Below, in pieces: positions 12,228 through 43,117 of a stretch of 64,000 nucleotides of DNA. This DNA comes from Polytrichum commune (taxonomy: Eukaryota; Streptophyta; Polytrichopsida; Polytrichales; Polytrichaceae). The notes below the pieces were generated by a model that was not told where the DNA came from, did no database searches, and saw only the letters and a list, made by a program, of their open reading frames with translations. Numbering within the stretch: position 1 is the stretch's first letter; each line of letters begins with the position of its first letter. The stretch is taken from NCBI GenBank assembly GCA_950295325.1, contig OX485807.1, forward strand, positions 32,704,440-32,768,439. The letters are read 5' to 3'. The position numbers and the translations under genes are program-made.

Positions 12228-14667
12228 GCTTGCACACAAGGCGGTGCCTATGGAGATGGAGGACTTCCAGGTTCGAAAGCTCGTGGTGTCATTGTTAATT
12301 TACATATTTTCTGTACCTGCAGCAGCAATTCTTCAAAGTGTATATATGATGGATCAGATATTATCTTTTCAACAGGATCAAGCCATTCTCATGGCTACAG
12401 AAAGTGCTATTCCATATTTTTTGAGGTGGCAAATCATGTAATAACTCTCTGTACTCAGCTTTGACAATAGATGGGTTACGTCAATACACTGTAGATGCCT
12501 TGTATAGTTCAGGGCAACCTTATGTGCTGATGATCAGCTTCGGAAGATTGAACAAAGGATTGTGTTTAAAATTCTTTGATGGGCCACCATTTGTGTTCTC
12601 AGTTTTTGAACGTCGATTGGACCTCCTTTGTTACTGATGTCATACCTAATCCAGAACCGAATTTAAAGATTCTTTACGATGGGTTCAAGGGTTTCAACTA
12701 ATGCTGATGATTGTGACACCTATTGAACTAAAGCTTTGTGCAGCATGTGGCTATGCACGGCCATCGATAAAGGTTGTGTGCAATTCATTATATACCAGAA
12801 GCAAAGTATGAGCTTTTCTTCTGAAATAGTGTTTGGTGTCTTTGGACATGAAAATTTCATGAATCGTTGGGTGATATGAATAGTTCTTCTACCCAATAAT
12901 ATAACAGGGAATTGGTAAGTTGAACTGGTTCTTTCACTCGAATTAAGCAAACAACTGTATTCAGTTCATATTGATAGACCATGATAGACCATGATATAAT
13001 GGAAGTTGGCACAATGCTCTGTGACATTCCTGGTCCTCAAGGCACATTTCTCCAAGGTGCAAATTATTAACAATACATCAGAGTGGTCATTATTGACATA
13101 CGGACTAGCACATGCAAATGTCTAAAGTAAATCCTTGGAAGTATGATTTGCAGGTGGTTGAGAATGGAATTTGGTGACCTTGATTTCTCTTGTGAGAGAA
13201 GTGATCATGTTGGCAATATGTCCGACCTCTAGGTAGCCAGCGCTCCAGGTTTGAGCCCCTTTGAGCTGGTAGGGAAAGCAAAAGGCATACGATTTAATTG
13301 GCATAAGGAGCTTGGACCAAAAAATTGATAGTTGCATAGATTTGTTGTATTTTGAGGACACTCAGTAGCAAGAGAACATTTTCTGGCAGAATGATTACTC
13401 TTCAGCACTTCTTGGGCCACATGGATGTATAGAAAGAGTATTGTTGTCCAGAGGACTCAGAAATAGAAGCAGTTAATGAATTAGAAATGATAGCCTTCAC
13501 ACAATGTGTGTGCAATGAGATTGTGCAACTCAAGCTTGCAGCAAAATATGATTGAGTCTTCACACAACATTGACCTAACTTACACCATATGTTTGTGGGA
13601 AGCCCGGCAGCACAACTTAGCATTCTAATGCCTGGGAAAATAGTGCTAGCACATTAGAGTCACTTCATTTGCATATTCTGAACTTAAACCCTAGTGTAAA
13701 CTCATTGGCTCCAATTTTTCTCTCTCACCTGACAGTACCTCGTCAAGAATATTGTTTTGTTTTGATATCCTTTGCTCTTGAACATCAAAAATTGTACTTT
13801 AATTTGGAAGCATTTAGATAACATCACTAAGCAGCTAGATGGTGATCTCCTTCCAAAGAAAAAGGATGTGACAAAAAAATGATAAATTATAGTTGCTTGG
13901 CAAAACTCTACAATACAGAACTTGAGTGCTCCCCATAAATGGGGAAACCTGAAATTGAAGGAGAGCATTATGCTTTCCCAATACTTGGTCCCATGGAACC
14001 CAACTAGGGAGTTGAGTGATGTTATGTAGATGATACAAAGAAAGTAAAAATGGTAAAGGAATTTGATTCGGTAGTATTTGTCACCTAAATCCGGGCCAAT
14101 CAACCTCCCTAGGAAGGAATGCATTAGCGTGTTGTGTTTGGTCTCATTGACCCACCCTTGGCTTTTTAGCCCCGATGCAATGGCTTGTGCCTCATGTAGT
14201 TGTTAGGGCGAGTTCCATGTAGGCTACCGTTCACGAGAATTAGAAAATAATAGATTGGAGGTGTTTGCATGTAGTTAAGCACAAGTTGTTATCCAATCAG
14301 ATTATGACAGTCCGCTAGAATGTGGAGTGCCCTAGACCTGGGCCACTAGACTTCTTTGTGTCTACTAAAGAATATCTAACCTACAAGTGCCAGTCACCGA
14401 AGGATTGAAGACCAATTTTGGGAGGAGGAGGAGGAGGTTTAAATCTGGAGTAGGAGGTTAGTAGGTGGTCCTCAATATGAGAAGATGGGAGTAGCTAGTT
14501 GGCATAAACAAACCCTACCTCATTAGATTCCCTCTACAATTGGGTGGTTTTGTCCTTATTCACACTAGAATCTGGTGGGCAAGCAACCTACATGGAAACT
14601 CACGCTTAGTTTAGTTGGCATATCTTTTTTTATATCCTATGGTTTCCTTGTTCTTGCAATACATTGT
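12228..14667. other. 3' region of the DUF1218 gene and non-genic DNA
   Basis: The first few hundred bases are probably 3' UTR. Beyond that I see only short unrelated frames on both strands. A GGAGGAGGAGGAGG run lies near 14,424. Confidence 0.45.
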
Positions 14668-14760
14668 TAAGGGCCGCTTTACACCTAGAGGCTAGGCCAA
14701 TTCGTTGTGTAAGAGGCTTGAAATCCTCACTTGTGATTGGTCAAAAAGCTGAAATCGGCC

Positions 14761-14774
14761 TCAACCCCTCTACA
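14761..14774. repeat. LINE target site duplication, left copy
   Basis: TCAACCCCTCTACA, identical to 26,981-26,994. It abuts the T-rich 3' tail of the LINE (A-rich on this strand). Confidence 0.9.
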
Positions 14775-14775
14775 G

Positions 14776-14819
14776 AAAAAAAAGAAAAGAAAAAATAACG
14801 CTCGTGTTTTCACACGAGC
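14776..14819 (-). other. LINE 3' terminal stem-loop and tail
   Basis: On the element strand the end reads GCTCGTGT-GAAA-ACACGAGC (14,819-14,800), a perfect 8-bp stem with a GAAA loop. It is followed by GTTATTTTTTC and a T-rich tail reaching the duplication. The truncated copy ends in the same way at 34,554-34,600. By analogy with LINEs whose reverse transcriptase recognises a 3' stem-loop, this is the likely template recognition element. Confidence 0.7.
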
Positions 14820-14932
14820 ATGACTACGAGCCCGTTGGCCTCATACTAATCACGGGATTCGGTGATGTAGTAAGTGGTTTTATGCCTCCGTTAGGAGGTG
14901 GGCTCTGGTGGTTCTCTAGAAATCCATTTTAA

Positions 14933-17900
14933 TTAAGGTGGTGGTACGGGTGGTTGTTTGTTATCAAGTTTTCTTTTATTAAGTACTAAATACGTGAGGT
15001 ATTTAATAGCGTTTTGGTGTATGTCTTTCATGAGTTTTTTGATGTTGGATTTAGGGATTTTTAAATTTGTTAGTTTTTGGATGGAGTGTTTGTGTATGGC
15101 TCCTCATACTCCTGCAGTGATTGTTATAACTGGATTGGTTTTCCATCCCTTGTTGTGGATGGCGTGATTTAGTGGGTCGTATTTAGCGTGTTTCTGTGTA
15201 ATGGCTTGTTCAGGGAATCTGTCGTGGCAGTAGGTAAATTCGATAAATTGTACTGTGTGGTTGGATGATGGTAATACGGGTAGGGTGATATGATTTGGGG
15301 CACCGATCATGCATAAGATGTCAGGTCTAAGTTTAGCTTGACATTGGCATGGTGTTTGTGGGCATGTGCATGCTAATAGCCATTCTGGTACTGTGGTTTC
15401 TTGTGGCCGGTTGTTGAGATGTCCGGCATTGGCTCTTGTGAGGAACCTTGTGTGTTTGTTAGCTTGTAGTGTTTGTGTGATCAGATGTACTGCTTTGTTA
15501 TGTCTGGCGATTCGGAGGCCTTTTAAGTATGGGTGTTCGCATATTGATAGTAGGTGCGGCCACGTGTCTCTCTCGTTTCTGTGGCAAAGTGTGCAGTTGG
15601 GGTTTGGATGTGTGAGGGGCCAAAAGATACTTTTTCTATGGTTGCCCATATATTGGGTGTATCGAAATTTTAATGTTTGGGTGATTTGGGTATATGGTAT
15701 TTGATCATTATTCCAAAAGTGATTAGAGAGTTTTTGGTTTATTTGTGTGTTTGAGAGCCATTTATCTACGTATGGGAATTTATTTATGGCTAAGGCTGTT
15801 TCTAAGATGTCGTGTGCTTTTGTTATGAATGTGCGTAAGTTGCGGATGGCTCCGTCATGTGTGCCTGTGGGGCAGCTGGCAAGCCAGTAGGGGGTGGGGC
15901 GGGCGATGTGGATGTGTGGGGTTTGTTCTGGTTTTTCTAAGTTGTTCCCTTCATTTGCTAGGTCATCGGCTAGTTCATTTCCGGTGATGCCCGTGTGCGC
16001 TCGGACTTTATGTATGTGGATTTTGTAGGGGGTCCAGTAAATCTTCCTTACTATGGCGGCTATAAGTAGTTTGTCAGGATGGTGGTGTTGTGATGTTGGG
16101 TGTTGTATGTGGTTATTTATGAGGTATATACTGTTGAGCTGTCTGTAAATATGTGTGTTTCTGTTTGCGTGATTTTTATGTTTTTGATAGCGAGGAGTAT
16201 GGCATATAGTTCGGCTCTAAGTATATTTTGATAGCCTGGTAATCGTTTTGCTATTCGGGTGTTATTATTAGGGCTATATACTCCCGATCCTGCAGTATTG
16301 CCCACAATTTGTCCCTCAGAGTTTTTTGTTGGGGGGATGAAGGAGCCGTCTGTGTATACGCATTGTTGTGGGGGGAATTTGGGGGGGGGGGGGTGAGTGT
16401 ATGTGTAAGTATTTGGTATTGGTATGGTAGTGTGGTTATCAGTGTGTAGTATATTTACTTTGGGGGTGTTTTTCCATAGATTGGAGAGTTTGACTTTATA
16501 GGGTGTGAGATTGGGTTTAATGGGGTGGGTGTCTATATGTGTGTTAGTTATTTGTTGCAAAATTTGTTTTAATGTGTGCGGGGTTTGGACGTGTGGACTT
16601 AATGTTGCTTGGTTGTGTACACAGATGATTGATGTGAGTGGCGATTCGTCGTATTGGTAGTATGTTGGCCATTCAGGTGTAGGTTTATATTTTATGGTGT
16701 GTGGTGGTATGGTTGCCATGACGTGTACGTCGGGTTTTGTGGCGATTGGTAGGTTTTGTGTTGTCCAGTCTTTATGGTTGGTGATTAGGATGGTAACTGT
16801 TTTGGGGTCTTCCTTGGCGGCCATTCTGGCCCAGTGGATGGCTTCTAACGTTGTGTTGTAGTCCGTGGGGTAAGCTAGTCCTATTCTTGTCCATTTAGAG
16901 GATTTTGCGTGTCCTAGTGAGCCGAATATTATATCTCGGTTATGTGGGGAGTGGTATTGTGTTATTTGAATGGGGCATGTGAGGGGGGATGAGTAGTAGG
17001 TGTGTGTGATTTGGAATGTTGTGATTAGCGTTTTGATGATTTCGGGGTGTAGTGTTTGATGTAGGTTTTGTGGTTGAATTATCTTTGGCTTTTTCTTGGG
17101 AAGTATAGTGACATATCTTTGGAGGAGCCATAGTACTTCGGTTTCAAAATCTTGTGGTGGTGGGTGAAGGAAGTTAGTTAAGTGTTGTTGTTTATTATGT
17201 GTGAATTGGTTCCAAAGCCATTGTAGTCTATCTATATTAATGGTGGCGATGTGGTTTCCATTTTGGTTATATACGTTGGCTACTGAGGTATTTATTTGGA
17301 TAGTGGGTTTATTGACTAGGATGTCTTTGTCCGGGTTACATTCCTGGGTGGAGGTTGTAAGGTTGGTGATTTTTAGTGGTGGTTGGATGAATTTCTTGTC
17401 CTTAGTTTGGACATGTGAGAGGTAGTTGGCATATGTTTTGGTCATTGTTTGTTCTAGTAGGGTGTTGTTGTATTGTGTTATGGTGAGTAGGTTGTGGTCA
17501 AGTAGGATATTATCCGGGTGTAAAAGGTCTTCTTCATTGCGCCATTGTTGTATGTTATTGTTCGTGTTTTGCCATAGGCACAAGTATGATTTATTAATGG
17601 CTTGCGCACCCCACTTATCTTTTCTAGTAGTGGTTTTTTCCCTTATTATTTTGTGTATGGCTCGACCTAATGGTGGGTCTAGTTGTTGAATATTTGTTAG
17701 GCTTGTTGGTGGTGGTGGTTGTATGGTGTTTTGAGACGTGTGAGGTTGTGAGTGTGGGAATAAAGTTTGTGCTTGATGTAGTGCCTCTTTGATAATTTTA
17801 GGGGCATGTTTGTATATGGTGCGGAATTCTTCCGGTGTGAGTATGGCATTGGTGGTTGTATTTTGAATTTGTAGGAGGGTTGTAATACCGTATCTGTATA

Positions 17901-20900
17901 ATTTATCAAGGAATTTTTGGGATTGTTTTTTGGATTCTTCTGTTAAGTTGGCATATGTAGGGGTAGATTTCCATTTTAGTTCGAGTTGGGTTTGTTTTAT
18001 GGGGAATGCTTTGTTTGCGGTGGTTATGTGTATCTCGTATTCTTTGTTCAGTAGAAAGAGCGTGCGTGCTATGGGTGATCTTGAGCAGGCTTGTTGTTTT
18101 AGTTTCGGTAGATGGAGGGAGCCCCCATATTTGGCTGTGATATATTTGGTTAGGCCTTGATATATGGCGCCCAGTTGGCCTTGATCGTTAAGGGCTTGTA
18201 GCAATTGCTGGCCTATGCAATGTATGTAATCCGGTAGTAAAGAGGTGGCGTTTATACCAAAGTTTTCGTGGGAGAGGTGAGTAAGGATATTGGCTGTGCT
18301 TCTAGGTATTCGGCATGCTTCTTTAGTGATTTTGCTAATTATTTTGTCTAGCTTTTTGATATCTGGTGTTGAGAAGGGTACCGCATAGTACGCGTATGCA
18401 ATGCGGGGCTTGATAACTGTGTTGAGAATATGTATTTTTTGTTTTAGGCTGGCCGGGGAGTTGGCGAGTAGTTGTCCTTGTTGTTTGGCTTTCTTTAATG
18501 TAATTTCTTTTTGTAAATTCCATTTAAGTGAGGGGACTAATTGGATGCCTAAGTACGTGTAGGGTTCGTTTTGTGTAAGAGTTGGAAAGTTCTTGTTTTT
18601 GTATGTGATGTGTTGTGATTGAATAAAGGCTTTGAAAGTGTTTGGTTTTAGTTTGGACTTATTGGGGCAACCTATAATGGCACACTTGGCTAGATTAAGG
18701 TCCATGTGTGCCCATTCTGCAAATTTTTGTAATTTAGTGATTTGAGGTTGAATATTCTGTATTGTGTCAGATAGGATAGCTAGGTCGTCGGCATATGCCG
18801 ACGTGGTGCACGAGGATGGGGATGTGCTAAAGTGATAGCCCTTGTTATCTTTTTCTAACCAACGCAGAAGTGGTTCTAAAAAGATAATAAAAAGATAAGG
18901 ACTAAGAGTGTCGCCCTGAATGGTGCCTCGGCTAATGTTAATTGGAGGGGTTGTGCCAAAGTGGCTCCCCGTAAATGAGGTGGTAGAATCTTTGTATATA
19001 TTGCTTATGATTTCGATTGCGTCTGTAGGATATCCGAGATCTTCCATGAGTGCTAATAGCCTTGCATGGTCGATAGAGCCAAATGCATTTTGAAAATCTA
19101 TATATGTGATGTATATGTCTTTGTTTGTGAGTCTTGCATCTTCAAGGGATGCTAGGATCATCTGGATTTGTCGGGAGGTATTTCTTTGTGGTCGAAAGCC
19201 TTCCTGGCTAAAGTGTAGCAATCTGTGTTGCTCGCCATAACTGGTGAGGATAGTTGTGATGGTGCTGGTATAGAGCTTATAAATTGTATTTGCGAGTGCG
19301 ATTGGCCTGTAGTTGGCCAGTTGGGTGGGGTCTTCTTTTTTGTGTAAGATGATAGTTTTACTGTGTTTCCATTGTGCTGGGATTTCTTTTTGTTTATAGC
19401 AGTGGTGAAAGAATAGGTATATTAGGTCGTGACATTGTGGAGGTAATGTTTTAATTATATCGTTGGGAATATTGTCTGGTCCGGGGGCTTTCCCTTTGGT
19501 TAGTCTTTTTACGCACTTGTCGTAAGTTGTTCTAGTAAATTGTGTGGTAATTTGTGCGTCTTGTGGGCCCTTTTTTCTAGTATTATACCGTCTTGCGTGT
19601 GCCATGGGTATTTGCGGATTGCACACATACAAGAGTCTGGGTGGTCTATGGTGTCTTCGCAGTTGGGGGCCTGACGTTGAAATGACGATTGTTGGGTGCG
19701 GTATATTTCGTGGGCTATATCCACTGGGTTGGTTAGTATGGTTCTATGTGAGTTTTGTATGCAGTCTAGGGAGTTCTCGGTTGTTGGTTGGAATATCTTT
19801 TTGTGGATGGATTTAGGCTTAGTGTTGAGGAGAGTGCGATATTTTTTAATGGCAGTTTTGATGTTGAGCAAGGCTTGTTTGGCGGTAATTTTGTATGCTT
19901 CGTTTTTTGTTGTTTTGCCTATAGTGGCTAATGTTTCTATCCATTGCATTTGTTCGGTGTGGTTAGTAGGGAGTGAGGGAATGTGAATACTTAACGATGA
20001 GAGTAATGTTATTATATCTGGGTGGTTTTGAAGTTGTGTGTGGGAATATTGACATGCCACGTGGATTGCTTTGCGGATGTTGTGGTGTGTCTTAAGATGG
20101 GATTTCCATATTTTTTGTTGTTATCTAGGGAGGAATCCTACTTGTAGTTTGGCTCTATGTGGGAGTGGTGGTGTTGGTTATGACATGCATGTTTGTTCTA
20201 TGCAAGTGTTAAGGGAGCTTATTATTTCATGGAAGTGGTGTTTGGCTTCTTGCCATTGGTGGTGTGTGAGTTGTTCTTGTTTTAAAGTGTTTGTGAGATT
20301 GGTTATTGCGAGGTTTTGTTTATCGAGGAAGGTAGTGTGTAAGGTCTGTAGGTTAGTTTCTGATATTGGGTAGGTGATTCGGGGGTTGGTGTATTTATGA
20401 TGATGATGCTATTGGGAACTAAAATTAGTTGTACTGGGTAGTGATCGGAGTTTTGGTTGAGGTTGGTGATTGTGTGGCTTTGTATTGTGTTATGATTTGG
20501 GATGTTAGAATAAAAGCCATCAATGAGGCTAATTAATGTGTAGTTATGCCCTCCTTGGCTTGTATGGCTTGCTTGGTTGTGGATTATGTTGAGGCCTATG
20601 CTTTGGGTGAATCTAGCCCATTCGTAGTCATTTGGGTTAGAGGGGGATGTTATCCCGTTGGATGATCGTCATTTTAGTAGTATGTCTCTGTTAAAATGTC
20701 CGGCGAGGATGATGTGGGATGTTGGGTAATTTGTAGTTAGAGTTTGGATTTGGGTTTGGATTTCTTGTACTAAGTGTAAGTCTTGAGGGTGTGTGGGCAT
20801 ATACATGTTTATGAGGAATATGGGGGTGATAGGTTTGTTTTTTATCATGATAATTTGTAGATATGGTGATATTGTGCTTGGGGTGGAAATCTTGGTTATA

Positions 20901-22275
20901 TTTTCATTTGTGTAGATGGTTTTTGGTATCATGATAAGTGTACCTCCTCTGGCTTTGTTGGTTTCAGAATATCTGTTTGGTTGTTGGGTAGTGTTATTTG
21001 AGTTGTTATATATGATTTTATAGTTTTGGAGTTTTCTATCTATATAAGTTGTGAATTTGAATTTGTGGATTTTGGTTTCTTGGATAAGGATGATATGTGG
21101 GTCCTTGTGTAGCGTTTGTGTGAGTTCTATGATGCCTGGGAGGCTGGTATTGATGCATCCCGCATTCCAAGTTATGATTTTTAGTTGTGACATAGAGTGT
21201 GCGTCGTCGATTGTGGTGATATGTGGAGTGTGGGCGCTTTGTGGCGGGTTTATGTTCGGGTGGTATCCTATGATTGGTAGGGTGCATTTGGTAAGTTCTT
21301 GTAGGATTTGTGGGGGTATGTATGGGAGTTCATTTTTCAGGGTAGTTATACTTATGGCTTCGCCTTTAGCTATTTTTGTGTTAATATGTGTGTAGGCTTG
21401 TGCTATGGTGGTGGGCTTTGGTTGGTGGGTGGGGTTGGTTTTAAAGGGGATGCGTGGTTGTGTGTTACTGGAAAATTTATGTATATTCCGTAGTAAGGTA
21501 TGACCTATCGGGTCCATGCCTGTTATCATGCGTTGGTTGCATATTTGTGGTATAGGGCTATATGTGATTATGAGGACATATATTTGGAGGTGGATTGGAT
21601 ATTTTGAAAGTAGAGATTTGTGCTTTTGGAGGTGGGATAGTTCATGGTTAAGGATGTTTTGTGTGCCATGTGTTAGGTGGGGTGTGAATAGGCTTTCTAG
21701 GTGTGTGTATCGAGGTTTGAACGATGTTGTATTAGGTGTGAAGTATTGCTTTTGTCTTTGTTTGTATTCTAAGGGGAGGTTTTTGGTGATGTCTGAAAGT
21801 GGACCCGGGTTGGGCTGTATGTCTCCACCAAGGAGGATGATTTTAGAGTTGTTCCATGTGTAGTATTGTGTGACTTTAGTTTTTGGGGTTTTAAGGTGTG
21901 TATGTGAGTGGTGCGTCTAATATTTCCTATGTGTGTTAAGGTGGTAATTGGTGGGATGGGGTGGGTGGTGACTGGGTGTATGATTGTGGTTGGGATATTG
22001 ATTGAGATTTTTCATGTGCTTTTGTAGTTATGATGTGTGGAGGTGATGGATGCTTTGTGGTTTGGGTGGTTTATGTGGTATTGATGTGGTGTTGTTATTG
22101 GTGTGTGGCATGTGTTTTGAGTGGTATAGTGGGCGCAAACTAGTAAGATGATAATGATATTCTTGAGAATGGTAGGGAATTGCTTAGTGCTAGTGCACTT
22201 TTTATTTATAAAAAATAGTACATATATATTGTATGCAATCAACGTCCATATGTATGATATTGGGTTGCTATTCAT
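14933..22275 (-). pseudogene. LINE ORF2 (2A-like, APE, RT, RNase H, CCHC), disrupted
   Basis: A possible start ATG at 22,275 overlaps the ORF1 stop; from there the frame must change once to reach the 2A-like motif (21,800-21,829). The endonuclease runs from about 21,186 (KIITWNAG, then the catalytic Glu in IQETK) to the S-D-H block at 20,441-20,449. The expected GDFN motif reads GHFN at 20,690-20,701, so the catalytic Asp is replaced. The reverse transcriptase (about 19,560-18,400) has KGKAPGPDNIP, YIDFQNAFGSIDH, GDTLSPYLF and YADD (18,784-18,795). RNase H shows YTDGS, RAELYA and FTDSS (about 16,355-16,125), then H-TGITGNELAD. A C-x2-C-x8-H-x4-C motif lies near 15,595. Lesions are TGA at 20,669-20,671, TGA at 15,104-15,106 and frame changes near 21,950, 20,320, 20,060-20,200, 19,550 and 16,120. 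The reconstructed end is the TAA at 14,933. Confidence 0.85.
21800..21829 (-). other. 2A-like ribosome-skipping motif in ORF2
   Basis: Encodes GGDIQPNPGP, preceded by KIILL. The 2A consensus is D-(V/I)-E-x-N-P-G-P; this copy has Gln at the Glu position. 2A and 2A-like sequences near the start of ORF2 are known from other APE-type LINEs, where they can separate the N-terminal leader from the enzyme by ribosome skipping or act as signal sequences. Activity with the Gln variant is uncertain. It lies about 210 residues ahead of the endonuclease domain. Confidence 0.65.
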
Positions 22276-24352
22276 TTTGGGAGTTTGGGCCTTTGTGGTA
22301 ACTTGATGGGGAGTTCCGGAAGTGACTACTATTGAAACCCGGTGGTGCTAGTTGTGACATGTTGGTGTCATCCGTGGGGTTGTGCGGCATGTGTGGAAGT
22401 CTTGCGGGGTTGGCGTGTGGGAGGGGGGGGTCCGGTAAGGTGGCGGCGATTGTTTGCATGATGTTGTGGATGCGGTGGTTCGATTGTTGAAACTCCATGG
22501 CCATTGCACTCATGATGTTGTGGATGTTGGCCGCGTGTGATTTGAGTGTCTCCGTGGATGCCTCGACTCGCGTGTCCGTGTTGTGGTTGATGGTGTTGGT
22601 GATTGTGTTGAGTTTGACATCCATTGTTTCGACTAGGTCCTTCATAGCTTTGGTGAAGGTCTTCTCCGAGACTAGGGGGGATGCGGCGGCATTGTTGTTC
22701 ATGGCTTGGGCTTTTTGAGCAATGGCCTCCCTCACCGGTGCGTGTGCAAGTCGGATGGCGGTTGGGTTAGGTGCGGATCCATCTATGCTACCTTTGTGCG
22801 GGACGAAATCCACTCTCCTTCCGAAGAGGTACACGGACTTATGGAGCCACTCCGTGTACACTGCGGCGTTTAGGCATTGGATGTGACACCATCCAGCCTG
22901 CCTATCGTCATCTTGCTTGTTTTGGTACCCGAATGTGACTCCGGTGACGTTGTCCTCGCCGATGAGCTTCTTGAGAAATTTGGTGATGTTTGATTGGGAC
23001 TCTCGTTGCGGGAGGTTGTTCGCTACAAGAGTGGTACTAATCCTTAGCTCCGAGGGATTGCCCATGTCTTTGTCCTTGGTGACACTTACTTTGAGGCGTT
23101 CGGAGTGGTAGGTGAGACCATTGTTGAGGATGTCCTCTCTAGCTTCTTCGGTGGTGAGCATGATGAAGGCGAAATCCTTGTCGGTGTCCGGCTTGGTGAG
23201 AGATAGAATCTCTATTTCGCGACCATCGTAGTAGGAATCCCGCATGATGCTCCTTAGGATGTCGGTGGCCGTATTGTCTCGGAGAGCTTCTCCCTTTAGG
23301 TGTAGTCTCATGTTTCGGGCTTTGGTGATGAGTTCGAAGCCCTTCTCGACTTTTCCAATGATTCTCTCCCCATCTCCCATGGTCATGACAAAAGCCCTTT
23401 CCCCCCGGAGGAGGGCCAAACCGTCCCGTTTAGGGTGTTGAAGGTGGATTTTAATAAATCCGGCCCAATTCCGTGTGATTGTATTGATACCTATGTCCAC
23501 GGGGTTAGAGTATGAAGTACCTAGAGGTATTGTCATGAGTTTGAGCCTTTCTATGCATGCTATTTTGACCTCCTTCCGACTAAGCTTCTTGTATTCACCA
23601 TCAAACCTTATGGTAACATGAAAACCTTCCGTGAGACCCGTGTCGTTAGATACCTTCTCGTATCTAGGGATTTGTGTGAGGTGTAGATGTTGGCCCGGAA
23701 CCGCATCCGGTCGTTCGGAGGGGTATAAGATTTGTTTCGTCCGTGGGAAGGCGTGTCGGAGTGTCCGGAACTCTTGGATTTCGGTTGGAGGCGTACCAAT
23801 GGCCAAAAATTCTTCGTCCGATCGGGCCTCCTTCAAAACATTCTTGCCATGTTGGGTGAGGAGTGTCTCTTGCATTTGGAAGCCTAGCCACATTTGACTT
23901 AGCATATCGATGCCCAATGTTGATGTGCGTTTGGATTTTGAATGGGGGGGAGGTGTGGTGCGCTTACTTGAAATTGTGGGCGTAGACGTGGCTGTGTAGT
24001 CCTCAGCTTTTCTTCTCTTCGTGGTTTGGCTCTCCGACACGTTCTCCAACCGGGGGTTGCGGTAGAGTAGTGTTGGTGGGGTGCTATCGGTGATGCGTGT
24101 TGATTTGTGTGACATTTCTTTGGAGTGCCCTCCGGATGAGATTTGTAACGAGCTCCCCCCTCTCTCCGGTGACACATTTTCTAATTGTGCATCCATGTCT
24201 AGATCTTCTTCGGTGTCGAGTGCGTGAGTGTGGTGTGGCGGCTGAGAAGGTTGTGGGTTGTGAAAGCTTGGCGGCTGGGCGTGTACCTGTTGCCTAAATT
24301 CCTGGTACTGATCATTGATGTGGGCCGCCTCTAGGCGGTTGTCATGTGACAT
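22268..24352 (-). CDS. LINE ORF1, RRM-like RNA-binding protein
   Basis: An intact frame of 694 codons from ATG 24,352 to TAG 22,268. The frame also stays open upstream to about 25,057 without an ATG, so I choose 24,352; base composition also changes there from extremely A/C-rich to balanced, which supports the choice. Residues about 260-430 contain two alpha/beta-looking segments (FHVTIRFDGEYKKLSRKEV and DKDFAFIMLTTEEAREDIL). Residues about 440-530 look like an RRM (TTLVANNLPQ, then GWCHIQCLNAAVYTEWL). The C-terminal ~130 residues include a likely coiled coil (VETMDVKLNTITNTI to MSAMAMEFQQSNHRIHNIM). No CCHC knuckle is visible. The expected role is binding of the element RNA and particle formation. 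The stop overlaps the possible ORF2 start. Confidence 0.75.
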   Translation of the reverse strand: MSHDNRLEAAHINDQYQEFRQQVHAQPPSFHNPQPSQPPHHTHALDTEEDLDMDAQLENVSPERGGSSLQISSGGHSKEMSHKSTRITDSTPPTLLYRNPRLENVSESQTTKRRKAEDYTATSTPTISSKRTTPPPHSKSKRTSTLGIDMLSQMWLGFQMQETLLTQHGKNVLKEARSDEEFLAIGTPPTEIQEFRTLRHAFPRTKQILYPSERPDAVPGQHLHLTQIPRYEKVSNDTGLTEGFHVTIRFDGEYKKLSRKEVKIACIERLKLMTIPLGTSYSNPVDIGINTITRNWAGFIKIHLQHPKRDGLALLRGERAFVMTMGDGERIIGKVEKGFELITKARNMRLHLKGEALRDNTATDILRSIMRDSYYDGREIEILSLTKPDTDKDFAFIMLTTEEAREDILNNGLTYHSERLKVSVTKDKDMGNPSELRISTTLVANNLPQRESQSNITKFLKKLIGEDNVTGVTFGYQNKQDDDRQAGWCHIQCLNAAVYTEWLHKSVYLFGRRVDFVPHKGSIDGSAPNPTAIRLAHAPVREAIAQKAQAMNNNAAASPLVSEKTFTKAMKDLVETMDVKLNTITNTINHNTDTRVEASTETLKSHAANIHNIMSAMAMEFQQSNHRIHNIMQTIAATLPDPPLPHANPARLPHMPHNPTDDTNMSQLAPPGFNSSHFRNSPSSYHKGPNSQNE

Positions 24353-25001
24353 TTTGGTGAGGTGGGTGGGCTTACCGGCTCCTATAGAAGTGGCTAACCG
24401 TTGGTGGATGGCCCCCGGAGCCGATTCCTGTGCTCCTATGTGGTGGTCTGTGCGGGGTCGAAGTTGGCTTGTAGTTTGCGTGGGGGGTCGGAGGAGGCTC
24501 AAGCAATCACTCCCTGTGTGGTCCTTAGGGATGTCAGTGTGTGCATGCGAAGTTGTAGTAGTGAGTCTGTCCGATAGCTTGTGGACTCTGTCCGTGTTGT
24601 TGTTGGTTGGCTTCTGCTGGTTCGGTGTTGTGTGTGTGCATGCCAATTGGATGTGAGTTAGTGTGTGATAATCGGGAGAGGGTGAGAGAGGGATCGTGAC
24701 GTCGGGGGTTGGAGTCGAGTTGTGGTTAGGGGGGAGCTTAGAAGGTGTACAATTGTGGAGGAATTTGAAGGGGAGAGTTGTGAATTTTACCTTCGGTGTG
24801 TGGTGGCTGTCGCTGTGTGGACGTGTGGGTGTATTGGTCAGTCCGCTTTCCTCTGTGCGGCTGACGTTGGTGTTCGTGTGTGGTGTGTGTGCAGGTGCTG
24901 GCTGCTGCCGTGTGAGTGCTGGAGTGTTGCTGCCGATCCTTCGGGGTCGCTTCGTTGGAGGGCGGGTGGTGTCGTCCCGTCGATGGTCTGCTGCGTGGCG
25001 T

Positions 25002-26939
25002 CTACGGTCTCGGTGGGGACGTCGGTGTCTTCGATGTCTTCTTGCTTCGGCGTACACGGGTCTGCGGCCTTGGTGGTGCTTGCTGCCGTTCGGTGGAGGC
25101 TTCGCGTCGGTGAGGGGTCGCTGGCGATTGGGGCAGATGATCTTCGGTTGTCTGTGGCGTCCTGCCGATCCTTCGTGGTGTCCGTGGTGGTGGGCGTGTG
25201 AGATGGAGTGTATGTGAGGGGGTTGTGTGTAAGGGTGTGTGCGAGAGTTGGAAGGTGCTGGGGGGGGGGAGGAATGCGGGGGTGGGGAGGAATGTGAGAG
25301 ATACTGAGGCGTGGAGGAGGGGGAGAGTGGAGTGTGCTTGAGAGGTGTGTGAGTGTTGTGAGAGGTGGTTGTTGTGTCTCTTGGGGGAGGGAAGTTTATG
25401 TAGGTATGTGTGCTTGCTAATGCGGGTTTGTGTCATTCTGTGGCGTTCTGTGGGTGCTAATTTTTGATGTGTGTGAGCTGTGATTGTGTTTTTGGGGCGG
25501 CGGGGTTGATATTGGAGCGGTGTCAGGAAACTTTGTGTGTGCTGTCCTTCCTGATTAGGGAATTGCTCAGGTGTGTTTAGGTGTGTCTGTGGTGTAGTGT
25601 TGTTTTGTGTGGCTGGTGACAGTCTGTAGCGCGGGGTTTTTCGAGGGCAGGCGAGGTGGCGATCCATGGTGTGGAGGTAGAGTTGGGTATGGGTCTGGTT
25701 GTGCAGGGCGTGGCGTTGGGTGTTAGCTTCGGCCTCCTGTCGGTGGTGGCTACACAACAATGCGGCGATCGGCGGGTGATTGGCACTCTGGAGTACTTTG
25801 TTGGGAGGTAAGGTTTTAACTTTCCTGTGTTGCTTGCTGTTTTGTTGTGTTGTGTTATGTGTGGGTTGTGATAAAGTGTGTAATGTGTCGAAGTATGTCG
25901 AAATGAATTCTGTGCGAGGTTGGGGAGGTCTTTCTTTGTCGCCGGAGAGGCTAAAGGTGTGGGCCTGCGGTGGTTGGGATTGTTTGCGGGTTGGCTTCTT
26001 TTGAGGGTTGGGTCGCCTTTTTTTGATTAATGTGTGGGGTATGTTTTGTGAGCTTCTCTGCGTGGCATTTGTGTGGGGGATGGGCGGGGCGATGTAGCGG
26101 GGTGGATTGGTGGGTTTGTGGGTTGGAGTTTTCTGGTGTCGTCGGGGAGCGCGCGGCTGTGTGCAGCTCCTGTTTGGGAGCCCGGGGTGTAGAAGCGGCT
26201 GGTGGTGGCAACTGCTTCGGTTGCGGCAGATCCAGGTATGTGCTTTCTGGCCTTGATATTGTGGCGTGTCGTTTTTGTGTGGAGGTTTGTGTGGGTGTTC
26301 CTGTGTGGATCTGTTTTGTGTGATTGTTGTATGCTCATGCGACTGTGTGAGTTGGTGCGAATGTGCTCGAGGTGTAGCTCGGAGATTTAGGGTTTGGGAG
26401 TTCCGCTGTGTGAAGTTTGTGTGAGGGAGGGGAGTTTCGGTGTGTACCTGTGTGTGAGTGTGTGCGGCGTTGGCTTGCAGGTGTGCGGCGGCAAGCAGGG
26501 GTGCAGCAGCAGGCAGGTGTGCGGCGGCAGGTGCATATATCCGGCGGTGCAGTTGGCTGGTGCGGCGTCGACATTTGCGATTCCTTGCGGACTTGTAGAG
26601 GGGCCGTTGGTTGCTGTGCGGGGAGTTCCTGTGCTGGGGTTTTAGATCTAGCTGGTGGGCGAGGGGGATACATGTTAGCTTGACCTTAGCGCTAGGGTTA
26701 GGATATTGTAGAGAAGCAGCAGACTTGTGTACAGGCGATGTTCGGAGGCTTAGAAGTGCCCAGAGCACTAATAAAAATGCTGTTACTTGGATCTGGCTGC
26801 CTCGGCTCCGTGTTTTGATGGTGTTTGTTGCAATCTTGTGTGCCTCCAATGTTGATGCGGTGGGCGATCTAGTTCGGGGTGTGTCCTGTGTCTGCTTCTC
26901 CGTCTCTAGGAGTCTCTCCGCTGCGGCCTCTCCGTCCAT
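25002..26939 (-). CDS. Possible LINE upstream ORF (ORF0), 645 aa
   Basis: An ATG at 26,939, 41 nt from the element 5' end and in a good context (GAGCCATGG), opens 645 codons ending at 25,002. The protein is extremely rich in H, P, T, Q, R and S and has no recognisable domain. One short hydrophobic stretch (VTAFLLVLWALLSL) lies near residue 55. The sense strand here is so poor in G and T that stop codons are rare in every frame, and other long frames overlap it. It may therefore be chance in a leader rather than a real protein. Confidence 0.3.
   Translation of the reverse strand: MDGEAAAERLLETEKQTQDTPRTRSPTASTLEAHKIATNTIKTRSRGSQIQVTAFLLVLWALLSLRTSPVHKSAASLQYPNPSAKVKLTCIPLAHQLDLKPQHRNSPHSNQRPLYKSARNRKCRRRTSQLHRRIYAPAAAHLPAAAPLLAAAHLQANAAHTHTQVHTETPLPHTNFTQRNSQTLNLRATPRAHSHQLTQSHEHTTITQNRSTQEHPHKPPHKNDTPQYQGQKAHTWICRNRSSCHHQPLLHPGLPNRSCTQPRAPRRHQKTPTHKPTNPPRYIAPPIPHTNATQRSSQNIPHTLIKKRRPNPQKKPTRKQSQPPQAHTFSLSGDKERPPQPRTEFISTYFDTLHTLSQPTHNTTQQNSKQHRKVKTLPPNKVLQSANHPPIAALLCSHHRQEAEANTQRHALHNQTHTQLYLHTMDRHLACPRKTPRYRLSPATQNNTTPQTHLNTPEQFPNQEGQHTQSFLTPLQYQPRRPKNTITAHTHQKLAPTERHRMTQTRISKHTYLHKLPSPKRHNNHLSQHSHTSQAHSTLPLLHASVSLTFLPTPAFLPPPSTFQLSHTPLHTTPSHTLHLTRPPPRTPRRIGRTPQTTEDHLPQSPATPHRREASTERQQAPPRPQTRVRRSKKTSKTPTSPPRP
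26477..26534. repeat. GC-rich tandem repeats in the LINE leader
   Basis: About three degenerate copies of a GCAGGTGTGCGGCGGC-like word. Tandem repeats in a LINE 5' leader may act as promoter modules; that role is inference. Confidence 0.6.
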
Positions 26940-26980
26940 GGCTCACTTGATCGTTCCACCATTCGACTTCGAGTAACTTA

Positions 26981-26994
26981 TCAACCCCTCTACA
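26981..26994. repeat. LINE target site duplication, right copy
   Basis: TCAACCCCTCTACA, identical to 14,761-14,774. It abuts the 5' end of the LINE, and the MITE sequence resumes directly after it. Confidence 0.9.
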
Positions 26995-27407
26995 CCTAGA
27001 GGCCGGGCTGATTTGGTGGTATGAAAATTTTAATCAAAAAATGCATGGTATGACACGGCCCGAGCTCATTGAATTGGGTGCACCCAAAATGGAAGGCCAA
27101 TTCTTGGCCTTGGGACCAATGTCAAATTTCAATAATAAATTATGTATTTTAAATAAAATATTATTTTTTAGCGAACCATATCCATTGGATCATGTGGAAA
27201 TATGAACGACTCTATGCTAGATTATGCTAGATTTATTGAATCAGCCTAGCTTCTTGGCCCTAAGGCCTTTACATATGGGAAAATTGGCCCCCATTATAAT
27301 CTTATTATAATGTGTAGTTGAGGCCGGCCTCCAACCCAAAAGGGGCTAAAATTTCATGCAATTGGCCTCAAGGGGAATTGGCCCAGCCTCTAGGTGTAAA
27401 GCGGCCC

Positions 27408-28068
27408 TACGTCTCATGCTCCCTCACCCTAGAAAAGAGAATATTACAACCAAGGGCTATGAATGAACATGTTGTGGTTCTCAAAAAATGACAACCTAAA
27501 TTTTAGGTTCTTAGCAAGGTCCTTATGTAAAATGGAATCTCTTTTATTAAAAAAAAGAGAGGTGAGAGAGCATATAAGACTTAGCAATGTTATGTGGGTT
27601 GTTGTGTCTTGATGAGTCTCCGGCCTTGTCCCTTTCAAGCATGACTCATGTTAGGTATCGATAGCTTGGTCAGATTTGTGTTTGTTAATGCAATGGAAAT
27701 CCATTTACTTCGTAAAGGAAAGAAAAAGAAAAAGAAAACAATACCACAATCCAAATTGTGTAAATATTAAAAATAACCAATTCACAAATGTAAATTCCAA
27801 ATTAGATCATAACATCATACTTTATAATGCATATGTTGTTGGAGGTTTAAGTACCAACCCCCAATCCTCCACAAAAGGCCAGAAAGACATGGATGAAATT
27901 CATCCACCAACATCCATCCAATTGACAGAGGGAGGAGGAAGCGAAGTGGGCCTGGGTATTAGGGCACGAAGGGCGTCTCGAGCGCTCTCTTTGCGCCTGC
28001 GAGTGCAGCTCCAGAGTGAGCCTAGGGTTTCATTTTTCTTCTTCGCTCGCACCACAGCCGCCGCAGCA
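27408..28068 (+). promoter_or_regulatory. RPL22 upstream region with site II and telo-box
   Basis: TGGGCC at 27,947-27,952 is the site II element bound by TCP factors, and AGGGTTT at 28,024-28,030 is a telo-box. This pair is typical of plant ribosomal protein promoters or leaders and supports coordinated growth-linked expression. The leader just before the ATG is CT-rich. The long open frame through 27,676-28,374 is an accidental extension of RPL22 exon 1. Confidence 0.65.
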
Positions 28069-29292
28069 ATGGCGATCGCAGTTGCCCCCAAGAAGGCCTC
28101 GACCGGGCCCAAGGGCAAGAAGAAGGCCCAGACCTTCACCATCGACTGCGGCAAGCCCGTGGAAGATAAGATTATGGACATTGCCTCCTTCGAGAAGTTC
28201 CTCAACGACCGCATCAAGGTCGACGGAAAGGCTGGGGTCCTCGGCAGCGCTGTCACCATCGCTCGCGAGAAAAACAAGATCAGCGTCACTTCTGAGAGTG
28301 CCTTCTCCAAGAGGTATGTACCGTGCTCTCTCTTTATCTATTTCACTGCTCTCACGGTATCCCACAACACTTGAGAGATAATTGAGTGATGGTTAGGGTT
28401 TTGTTGCAAATGGAAGCATGCTACATGGACAGGTTGATTGTAATTCAGAGGGCCTCATTGGTTGTCGTTTACACTACAAAGTTGAAGATGGTTGTGGTTG
28501 TGGTTACGGTTAACCACAGTATTCAATAATTTTTTAAAATTCGCACTTGTCTTGTGTGTATCATTGCGGTTGATGGCGAAGTTTGCCTTTTACATCGCAA
28601 TCTATTGTTGGTTTAGGTCTGAGAGTTGAGAAGAAAGTAAAGTGATTATCGTCTTGTTGGTCTTGGATTTTAGTATTCAAGTGCTTGCCTTTTCAACTTT
28701 TTCCTCGGACCTTGGCCTTCAGAATCTGATGTGACACCGAATGAGCATGAACAACCACCTCAAGGGTGGTTAACCATGTGGAGTAGTGGGGTTGATGAAG
28801 TAGGTTGTGGTTTTTGTTAGCAATTATTAAACCTGTTCGGGGGAAATAGAATCCAAAGAATTAAACCACAACCATGACCACACTATCCCTAGTGATCTAT
28901 GGGAATTTTTTTTCTTCTGAGGAGAGCCCTAAATGGCTAGGGTTTTGTATTGAGATGAATCTATTGTGCATTAAGTCTTATTCTCTCGGTGCAAATGTTG
29001 GATGCCCCTCTATGTAGATACTACATGACAGTCAGAAGCAGCCCTAATATTTTTATCTGCAAGTGGTTCAGTTTATGGAGTAATTGAGATTCTTGAGATT
29101 AATTCACGCGAGATTCTAAGTGTGGTTGGTTTTCGTTTGTCTGTTAGGTACTTGAAGTACTTGACGAAGAAGTACTTGAAGAAGCACAATGTGAGGGATT
29201 GGCTCCGGGTTATCGCATCCAACAAGGACAGGAATGTCTATGAGTTGCGATACTTCAACATTGCTGACAATGAGGGTGAGGAAGAGGATTGA
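28069..29292 (+). CDS. RPL22: 60S ribosomal protein L22 (eL22)
   Basis: Two exons, 28,069-28,313 and 29,148-29,292, with an 834-nt GT-AG intron splitting an Arg codon (AG|G), encode 129 aa. The protein starts [10 protein letters not shown] with a basic [11 protein letters not shown] tail region. It then carries the eL22 signature segments [50 protein letters not shown] and [17 protein letters not shown], with the usual acidic C-terminus. Length is normal. It is a component of the cytosolic large subunit near the exit tunnel and is not essential for peptidyl transfer. The frame and all conserved blocks are intact, so this is a functional-looking gene rather than a retrocopy; the intron confirms that. 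Confidence 0.97.
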
Positions 29293-42601: not shown

Positions 42602-43117
42602 GGGCCGCTTTACACCCAGAGGCTGGGCCAATTCGTTGTGTAAGAGGCTTGAAATCCTCACTTGTGATCGGCCCCAAGCCCTTTACACCTAAAGGCGGAG
42701 CCGATTTGGTGGTATGATTTTTTTTAATAAAAAAATGCATGGTATGACACAGCCCGAGCTTGTTGAATTGGGTGCACCCAAAATGGAGGGTCAATTCTTG
42801 GCCTCGGGGTTAATGCCACATTTCAATAAAATTTTTAAAATAAAATAATATGATTTTTTCAATGAATTATATCCAGTGGATTATGTGGAAATATGAATGG
42901 CTCTATGCTAGATTATACTAGATCCGTTGGATTATGCTAGATTTATTGAATTGGCTTAGCTTCTTGGCCCTAAGGCCTTTACATATGGAAAATTTGGCCC
43001 CCATTGTAATCTTATTATAATATGTAGTTGAGGCCGGCCTCCAACCCAAACGGGGCTGAAATTTCATGCAATCGGCCTCAAGGGGAATTGGGCTGGCCTC
43101 TAGGTGTAAAGCGGCCC
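42602..43117. mobile_element. PIF/Harbinger-type MITE B2, intact (516 bp)
   Basis: The termini GGGCCGCTTTACACCCAGAGG and the complement of GGGCCGCTTTACACCTAGAGG are flanked by a perfect 3-bp duplication, TCA (42,599-42,601 and 43,118-43,120). Internal order matches the split element at 14,671-27,407 and provides the empty version of the LINE target site. An internal TTTACACCTAAAGGC near the left end is a partial repeat of the terminus. Noncoding. Confidence 0.85.

Follow-up and report, generated by a model that had tools for sequence, protein, structure and literature searches.

Within the window analysed here (the whole 64,000-nt stretch of Polytrichum commune contig OX485807.1), a long interspersed nuclear element (LINE) of 12,206 bp lies on the minus strand, inside a miniature inverted-repeat transposable element (MITE). 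Read along that strand, it presents in order a 646-aa open frame, a 1054-aa frame with the C-terminal part of open reading frame 1 (ORF1), a 2A-like motif, an apurinic/apyrimidinic-type endonuclease (APE), a reverse transcriptase (RT), a long linker, a PCIF1-like domain, an RNase H, a zinc knuckle, a restriction-like endonuclease (RLE), a 3′ untranslated region of ~135-140 nt and a T-rich tail (Table 1). The element is very probably a full-length, dead copy of a Dualen/RandI-type LINE, with APE and RLE placed around RT and RNase H, in the genome of a non-flowering land plant. An earlier note made from the sequence alone had described it as a complete and unusually long plant LINE with APE, RT, RNase H and a 2A-like motif. 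All four were recovered as Pfam matches or motifs and the LINE is of full length, but it is not intact, being broken by frameshifts and stops; moreover, the C-terminal RLE (motifs in 11/11 relatives) and the PCIF1-like domain (PF12237 match) had been overlooked. With these two domains, what looked like an unusually long plant LINE is better read as a dual-endonuclease element.

The insertion and its borders

The 14-bp direct repeat TCAACCCCTCTACA occurs exactly twice in the window, at the two edges of the LINE, and no such case arose in 100 dinucleotide shuffles. Fused across the insertion site, the MITE flanks amount to 517 bp that align over their full length with an uninterrupted 516-bp element at 42602-43117, the indels lying elsewhere than at the site. 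This relative holds a single copy of the 14-bp site, with 3 mismatches, and is bounded by terminal inverted repeats (TIRs) of 34 nt that are 88% complementary. Because the repeat is exact and the flank alignment closes on an uninterrupted relative with inverted termini, the 12,206-bp insertion is genuine and the window copy has both of its borders fixed, bearing out the proposed perfect 14-bp target-site duplication (TSD) inside a MITE. Elsewhere in the genome it is the 3′ end that recurs: the 40 best-scored places of 1,073 candidates, the window copy included, match to within 11 nt of the 3′ border at 14775, whereas the first 600 nt at the 5′ end were found at no other genomic place, in a search that skips very common words and does not prove uniqueness. 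Besides itself, the following 2,081 nt returned five matches of 91-193 nt at 66-81% identity, again in a search that skips very common words. The 5′ border at 26980 is supported by the target duplication and the MITE alone.

Table 1 Features of the LINE and its insertion site (window coordinates).
Feature	Position	Strand	Basis and remarks
Host MITE, left part	14671..14774		Flank alignment, TIRs of relative; ends in TSD copy 1
TSD copy 1 (TCAACCCCTCTACA)	14761..14774		Exact repeat search
Whole LINE, very probably Dualen/RandI-type, 12,206 bp	14775..26980	-	TSD, MITE alignment, shared 3′ end, relatives
T-rich 3′ tail, (TTTTC)n-like in A-type copies	14775..14795	-	3′ end reads
Structured 3′ RNA (predicted)	14796..14906	-	Outer stem GAGCCC/GGGCTC, two inner hairpins, terminal GAAA-loop hairpin, GTTA
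Zinc knuckle (CX2CX9HX4C) and predicted RLE	14936..15595	-	Motifs, 11-domain alignment, profile; contains TGA 15104-15106
RNase H, over two frames in the window copy	15947..16365	-	PF00075 in both pieces, each below curated cut-off
PCIF1-like domain (FGSLG retained, NPPF lost)	16897..17160	-	PF12237, E 1e-7, 32.1 bits, cut-off 31.1
Reverse transcriptase core	18643..19488	-	PF00078, E 6.6e-35; best PDB matches R2 proteins
APE endonuclease (ITWNA, QETK, GDFN as GHFN, NSDHYP)	20431..21175	-	Pfam 0.002, below cut-off; interrupted by stop and frameshift
2A-like motif GDIQPNPGP near ORF2 N-terminus	21800..21826	-	Motif search
Conserved C-terminal part of ORF1	22271..24370	-	Alignment with ORF1 of relatives; no convincing Pfam/PDB family
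646-aa open frame, probably N-terminal half of ORF1 out of frame	25005..26939	-	ORF list, relatives, shuffles
TSD copy 2	26981..26994		Exact repeat search
Host MITE, right part	26995..27407		Flank alignment

Relatives in the genome and decay of the window copy

The 138 best-scored RT places of 1,862 candidates were 64-100% identical to the window RT. Copies whose RT lies near that of the window copy are hereafter referred to as subfamily A and those with RTs at 64-68% identity as subfamily B; from the RT to the stop, A and B share 44-45% of their amino acids. Two places, C36:7088-7933 on a small contig and C6:20938778-20939623 on a chromosome, returned identical RT scores and possibly represent an unplaced assembly duplicate.

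ORF2 is open to its stop in three of the seven near-whole relatives, measuring 2372 (L007/L008), 2924 (L011/L012) and 2625 aa (L013/L014) from stop to stop. The ORF2 of L007/L008 aligns to the window copy as four pieces in three frames; the GDFN motif of the window APE reads GHFN, with loss of the Asp, and is soon followed by a stop; and an in-frame TGA falls inside the RLE. Because of these lesions the window copy is, judging from its sequence, dead.

A predicted RLE at the C-terminus

Eleven RLE domains from relatives, some of them near-identical, were aligned, and the motifs CX2CX9HX4C, RHN, PD, E, KX2KY and GW proved invariant (11/11), the residue before PD varying between R and K; the window copy carries the RLE motifs as well. 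The hallmarks described for LINE RLEs are a CX2-3CX7-8HX4C knuckle, RH, PD, D/E, KX2KY and GXW (PMC5678591; here and below, statements are limited to the available part of each paper cited by PMC number). Compared with 177,635 PDB sequences, a profile of the 11 domains yielded two matches at E ≤ 10, both to R2Bm and over the knuckle/RHN part (E 0.67 and 0.68). Seven additional B-type loci show the RLE motifs again, decayed copies having lost some of them (L050 is without PD and L054 broken after it). Across five informative pairs of copies that share members, the ratio of nonsynonymous to synonymous change (dN/dS) was 0.07-0.11 for the knuckle and RLE, compared to 0.10-0.23 for the linker and 0.25-0.54 for a stretch between domains (a ratio defined for four of these pairs), all values being rough since synonymous distance is near saturation in several pairs; three near-identical pairs with too few changes were excluded. 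By this measure, the RLE is under purifying selection. Catalytic pattern, R2Bm match and selection together argue for a C-terminal RLE of the Dualen/RandI kind, that is, a predicted nuclease.

RT, RNase H, APE and 2A-like motif

Searched against PDB, the window RT frame scored 80.4-130.5 bits with R2 proteins and 77.5 with L1, and the RT of relative L020 scored 69.5-97.9 bits with R2 proteins and 51.9-53.7 with L1 (human L1, 53.7); a 66-aa RT piece had no PDB match. With each of six queries, all three R2 RTs (86-124 bits) scored higher than every one of the six L1-type RTs from this genome (50-94 bits; L056-L059, L061 and L062, so named by reading of their sequences), this being a comparison of scores and not a tree. 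The two traits of a plant L1 are thus absent from the element: its RT is not closest to L1, R2 scoring higher in 6/6 queries, and its tail is T-rich rather than the poly(A) given for plant L1 (PMC9033089). The same genome also holds a distinct LINE (L060:782-6316) with an APE and, by reading, an L1-like RT in a single open frame of 1845 aa.

RNase H was detected in 8/8 relatives at E ≤ 0.1, in keeping with Dualen/RandI. The APE, likewise in keeping with that group, is shown by its motifs in the window copy and in relatives and by a PF14529 match in L007 (31.1 bits; cut-off 27.4). At the 2A-like motif, the window copy reads DIQPNPGP where the StopGo/2A consensus is D(V/I)ExNPGP, and relatives have H, K or the canonical E at the divergent place. 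H variants of 2A were more than 95% active in a published assay, the available part of which contains no assay of Q or K (PMC12846837). The 2A-like segment is tandemly doubled in two copies (L007, ~6490 and ~6926; L009, ~6521 and ~6983).

A PCIF1-like domain without the catalytic motif

PF12237 (PCIF1_WW) was matched by 8/8 relatives at E ≤ 0.1, the best at 1.5e-12 and L020, at 26.3 bits, falling below the cut-off. When a profile of the LINE domains was compared with PDB, the sole match at E ≤ 1 was PCIF1 itself, weak (E 0.21) and aligned through FGSxG. The catalytic motif of PCIF1 is NPPF (PMC10544176). It is absent from all eight aligned LINE copies, which read AFPT, AHPH or AHPP at this place, so that the signature of an active PCIF1 methyltransferase is missing. 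In the genome, the 150 best-scored places of 697 candidates for the domain were all above the cut-off, counted whether or not they lie in a LINE. Seven loci picked among them (L049-L055) were considered as candidates for divergent PCIF1 families; this was ruled out, all seven reading as subfamily B. Six of the seven read YAHP at the place of NPPF, and L053 is unreadable there. In the same five pairs as above, dN/dS of the domain was 0.07-0.14, which suggests that it is in use and under purifying selection despite the loss of its catalytic motif. It is probably a non-catalytic module that holds the cap or RNA. A literature search pairing PCIF1 with retrotransposons found no relevant report.

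ORF1

The last 700 residues of the 1054-aa frame match the ORF1 of relatives at 78-79% (L003, L011) and 48% (L007). Upstream of it, the earlier note had seen a 2.6-kb leader. This region is largely occupied by the 646-aa open frame, which begins 42 nt inside the 5′ end and exceeds the longest frames obtained when the first 2,000 nt were shuffled 500 times (on average 200, at most 472), and in the two relatives with a whole ORF1 (1302 and 1513 aa, stop to stop) the first Met lies 60 and 123 nt from the 5′ end. A giant ORF1, with this region as its N-terminal half, is a more likely reading than a leader, although no match was found between the 646-aa frame and the ORF1 N-termini of relatives. 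Searched against Pfam, ORF1 gave a best E of 0.037, with all matches below cut-off, and PDB returned no convincing match. The coding strand is strongly biased toward A+C in the six copies measured (~69% in four A copies including the window copy, 64-67% in two B stretches with some flank).

The 3′ end: a structured RNA and a T-rich tail

The 116 nt preceding the tail (14799-14914) fold at -43.1 kcal/mol (z -6.1), with 0/200 shuffles as good. Twenty sequences were aligned to the predicted structure, namely the window copy, 18 loci whose A-type ends could be read, and L023, which lacks the terminal hairpin because of the coordinates chosen; L031 and L032 (truncated) were left out, as were L022, L034-L036, L038, L043, L044 and L047. 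Across the set, 97.3% of cells were paired, versus 32-39% in slid versions, and 9 of 35 pairs showed double changes, compared to a shuffle mean of 4.8 and with 1/500 shuffles as high. Subfamily B (L012) has a like arrangement in other letters (z -2.2; 1/200 as good). Tails are (TTTTC)n in A copies and (CTAT)n in both B copies whose tails were read, short-repeat tails as are found in Dualen/RandI. A search with 114 bp of the 3′ end returned 379 candidates, of whose 40 best-scored places ten were fetched; no short interspersed nuclear element (SINE) with the same 3′ end was among these ten, L029-L032 being truncated LINE copies and the six others matching 277-736 bp of the LINE 3′ end. For the T-tailed plant SINEs Au and p-SINE, Table 2 of PMC3747384 gives the partner LINE as no data. 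An Rfam search of 14600-27200 gave 0 matches at E ≤ 1, and thus neither a hepatitis delta virus (HDV)-like nor any other known RNA.

Mobility and exchange between lineages

Three B copies (L017, L018 and L024), located on contigs C5, C2 and C1, share 99.4-99.6% identity across 4,665 nt, and each is uninterrupted between the RT and the stop, in whole frames of 2625, 2625 and 1652 aa. Target duplications of 7-20 bp were detected in 12 of the 14 copies run (L013/L014 was left out of this test), that of L037 (7 bp) being weak and that of L009/L010 (C1, 44.8 Mb) lying in repeated sequence; none was found for L029 and L035, nor was a target repeat found for the B copy L011/L012. All 12 duplications start with T and 11 of them are preceded by a purine, the target differing in each. 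Four 5′-truncated copies (L029-L032) of 105-182 bp end at the common 3′ end. The family looks mobile, with well over 100 scored places, truncated copies with duplications, and a covarying 3′ RNA with T-rich tail; the near-identical copies found on three chromosomes also speak for recent activity. Its behavior is not that of R2, where RLE is the sole endonuclease and insertion is site-specific, given the APE and the 12 different targets.

The closest relative of the window copy, L001/L002 (C6, 36.43-36.45 Mb), is 5′-truncated at ~7.9 kb and flanked by a ~480-bp duplication, of which just over 300 bp were read on both sides; compared to the usual ~15 bp, this is as if the two strands had been cut far apart.

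Against the C-terminal ORF1 of the window copy, ORF1 identity is 86% for the B copy L011 and 56% for the A copy L007, whereas ORF2 follows the reverse trend (67% for L011 versus 76% for L007, nucleotide identity over aligned parts). ORF1 and ORF2 halves thus seem to have been exchanged between lineages, yielding mosaics. No relatives were confirmed in IMG/VR or GTDB contigs, which are not plant collections.

Host genome and flanking sequence

The gene content of the assembly fits a non-flowering land plant. The plastid contig C8 (146,561 bp) holds rbcL, an accD-like frame, trnR-CCG between rbcL and accD, and a chlL/NifH-family frame; neither chlL nor trnR-CCG is known from the plastids of flowering plants. 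A flowering-plant host, at first suggested by the rbcL frame, is rejected on these grounds and because the best Rubisco match is 9chz, from a hornwort. LFY was matched at 4 places and GRAS at 70 (exons counted separately), and one chromosome end consists of CCCTAAA repeats. Adjoining the MITE in the window, an open frame at ~27900-28300 (+) is presumably a ribosomal protein L22-like exon.

Discussion

Dualen elements code for an APE as well as an RLE, and an RNase H is on record for Dualen/RandI (PMC4640811). Green-algal RandI elements have (ATT)n and (CTATTT)n tails (Table 3 of PMC3747384); for flowering plants, only L1 and RTE families are listed in that paper. A 2022 review gives plant LINEs as L1 and RTE (PMC9033089). 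The group appears in green algae only in the available part of a 2015 survey (PMC4438587), in green algae again in PMC8226300, and is annotated in cryptophytes (PMC12747079). We recognised no report of Dualen/RandI in land plants among the papers listed by a search that left supplements, Repbase and most subscription papers outside; tables in bryophyte genome papers may list LINE/Dualen, and B-type C-termini may conceivably occur among annotated proteins.

A number of observations weigh against the assignment of the window LINE to Dualen/RandI or against parts of the picture built on it. The assignment draws on architecture, motifs and RT scores relative to R2 and L1 only, and the percent identities of the RTs overlap in BLAST (25-29% with R2, 22-29% with L1). 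In the RLE, the knuckle has one residue more in its spacing than the published pattern, GxW reads GW, and the R2Bm match of the profile is weak; subfamily B (L011) is without a Pfam match for APE and has its motifs only. Single-sequence AlphaFold models had a predicted local distance difference test (pLDDT) score of 34 for the RLE and 38 for ORF1, whose strand/helix order could be that of two RNA recognition motifs, and neither model was used. Further pair types in the 3′ RNA number 20 versus 18.0 in shuffles, a count reached by 47/500; the purine|T preference comes from 12 sites, at which the first T is confusable with the tail; and the cap-holding role of the PCIF1-like domain is conjectural.

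It is highly improbable that the element is an ordinary long plant LINE of L1 or RTE type whose C-terminal domain is a zinc-knuckle tail and no nuclease. APE LINEs do also end with a knuckle (PMC5678591), and the PDB match of the RLE profile spans the knuckle/RHN part alone, yet PD, E and KxxKY come after it in the order of an RLE and are invariant in 11/11 domains, dN/dS stays low up to the C-terminus, and the L1-type RTs of the genome itself fall below R2 in 6/6 comparisons. The high R2 scores of the RT would also suit an independent fusion, in which an R2-like RLE element gained an APE in plants and founded a new clade resembling Dualen, and neither the PCIF1-like domain nor the giant ORF1 can be attributed to Dualen on the evidence at hand. 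We regard such a fusion as unlikely, a single origin being simpler because Dualen/RandI share RNase H and both nucleases (PMC4640811) as well as, in green-algal RandI, T-rich short-repeat tails (PMC3747384).

A distinct question, compatible with membership in Dualen/RandI, is how the lineage reached its host. Recent horizontal transfer from an alga or other eukaryote would agree with a 2022 review whose available part lists no such land-plant LINE (PMC9033089) and with the restriction to green algae in the 2015 survey (PMC4438587). It is nonetheless quite improbable in our view: the two subfamilies, at 44-45% amino-acid identity and each internally diverse, argue for long residence, and the host is a non-flowering plant.

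For the Dualen/RandI-type element, the following course of retrotransposition may be proposed. The capped mRNA would yield an ORF1 protein, assumed to bind RNA, and a large ORF2 protein (ORF2p), from which the 2A-like motif perhaps splits off the N-terminus. The RT would recognise the stem junction and terminal hairpin of the 3′ RNA; one endonuclease would nick the target at purine|T (element sense strand), which frees a 3′ end on the complementary strand as primer for reverse transcription, beginning at the T-rich tail. The RNA would be removed by RNase H, and the second strand would perhaps be cut by the other nuclease, leaving duplications of mostly 9-20 bp. We infer these steps from features that were seen directly, namely the architecture, its conservation, the target duplications, 5′ truncation and the structured 3′ end; duplications, 5′ truncation and a structured 3′ end with T-rich tail are as target-primed reverse transcription would give.

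Dualen has served as an argument for the replacement of RLE by APE in the evolution of LINEs (PMC4640811). If the assignment is true, the Dualen group reached land plants, and a land-plant population with young copies would allow the strand cut by each nuclease to be determined. Under selection yet devoid of its catalytic motif, the PCIF1-like domain hints at how a LINE might recognise capped RNA of its own. Tentatively, and with more doubt than confidence, non-flowering land plants may have kept or gained a mobile dual-endonuclease LINE lineage in which a captured PCIF1 remnant serves as a cap reader, tying ORF2p to full-length capped RNA, while APE and RLE each cut one strand.

R2 elements are not known to carry an APE or RNase H and insert in ribosomal DNA, unlike the window LINE family, which has both domains and occupies varied sites with duplications. 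R2 (R2Bm and others with structures) is nonetheless the nearest by RT score and shares the order knuckle, RH, PD, E, KxxKY (PMC5678591). The L1 elements of the same plant genome resemble the window LINE in having an RT and, as in L060, an APE, and differ by RT scores of 50-94 bits, versus 86-124 for R2, and by the poly(A) tail of plant L1 (PMC9033089). With PCIF1/CAPAM the element shares the PF12237 match, the FGSxG motif and the only PDB match at E ≤ 1; unlike in PCIF1/CAPAM, NPPF is replaced by AFPT, AHPH or AHPP and the domain sits in a LINE polyprotein. From the Dualen/RandI elements of Chlamydomonas, its relatives and cryptophytes, it is set apart by its land-plant host, its (TTTTC)n or (CTAT)n tail, and perhaps its PCIF1-like domain and giant ORF1, and it resembles them in the combination of APE and RLE, in RNase H and in a T-rich short-repeat tail (PMC4640811; PMC3747384).

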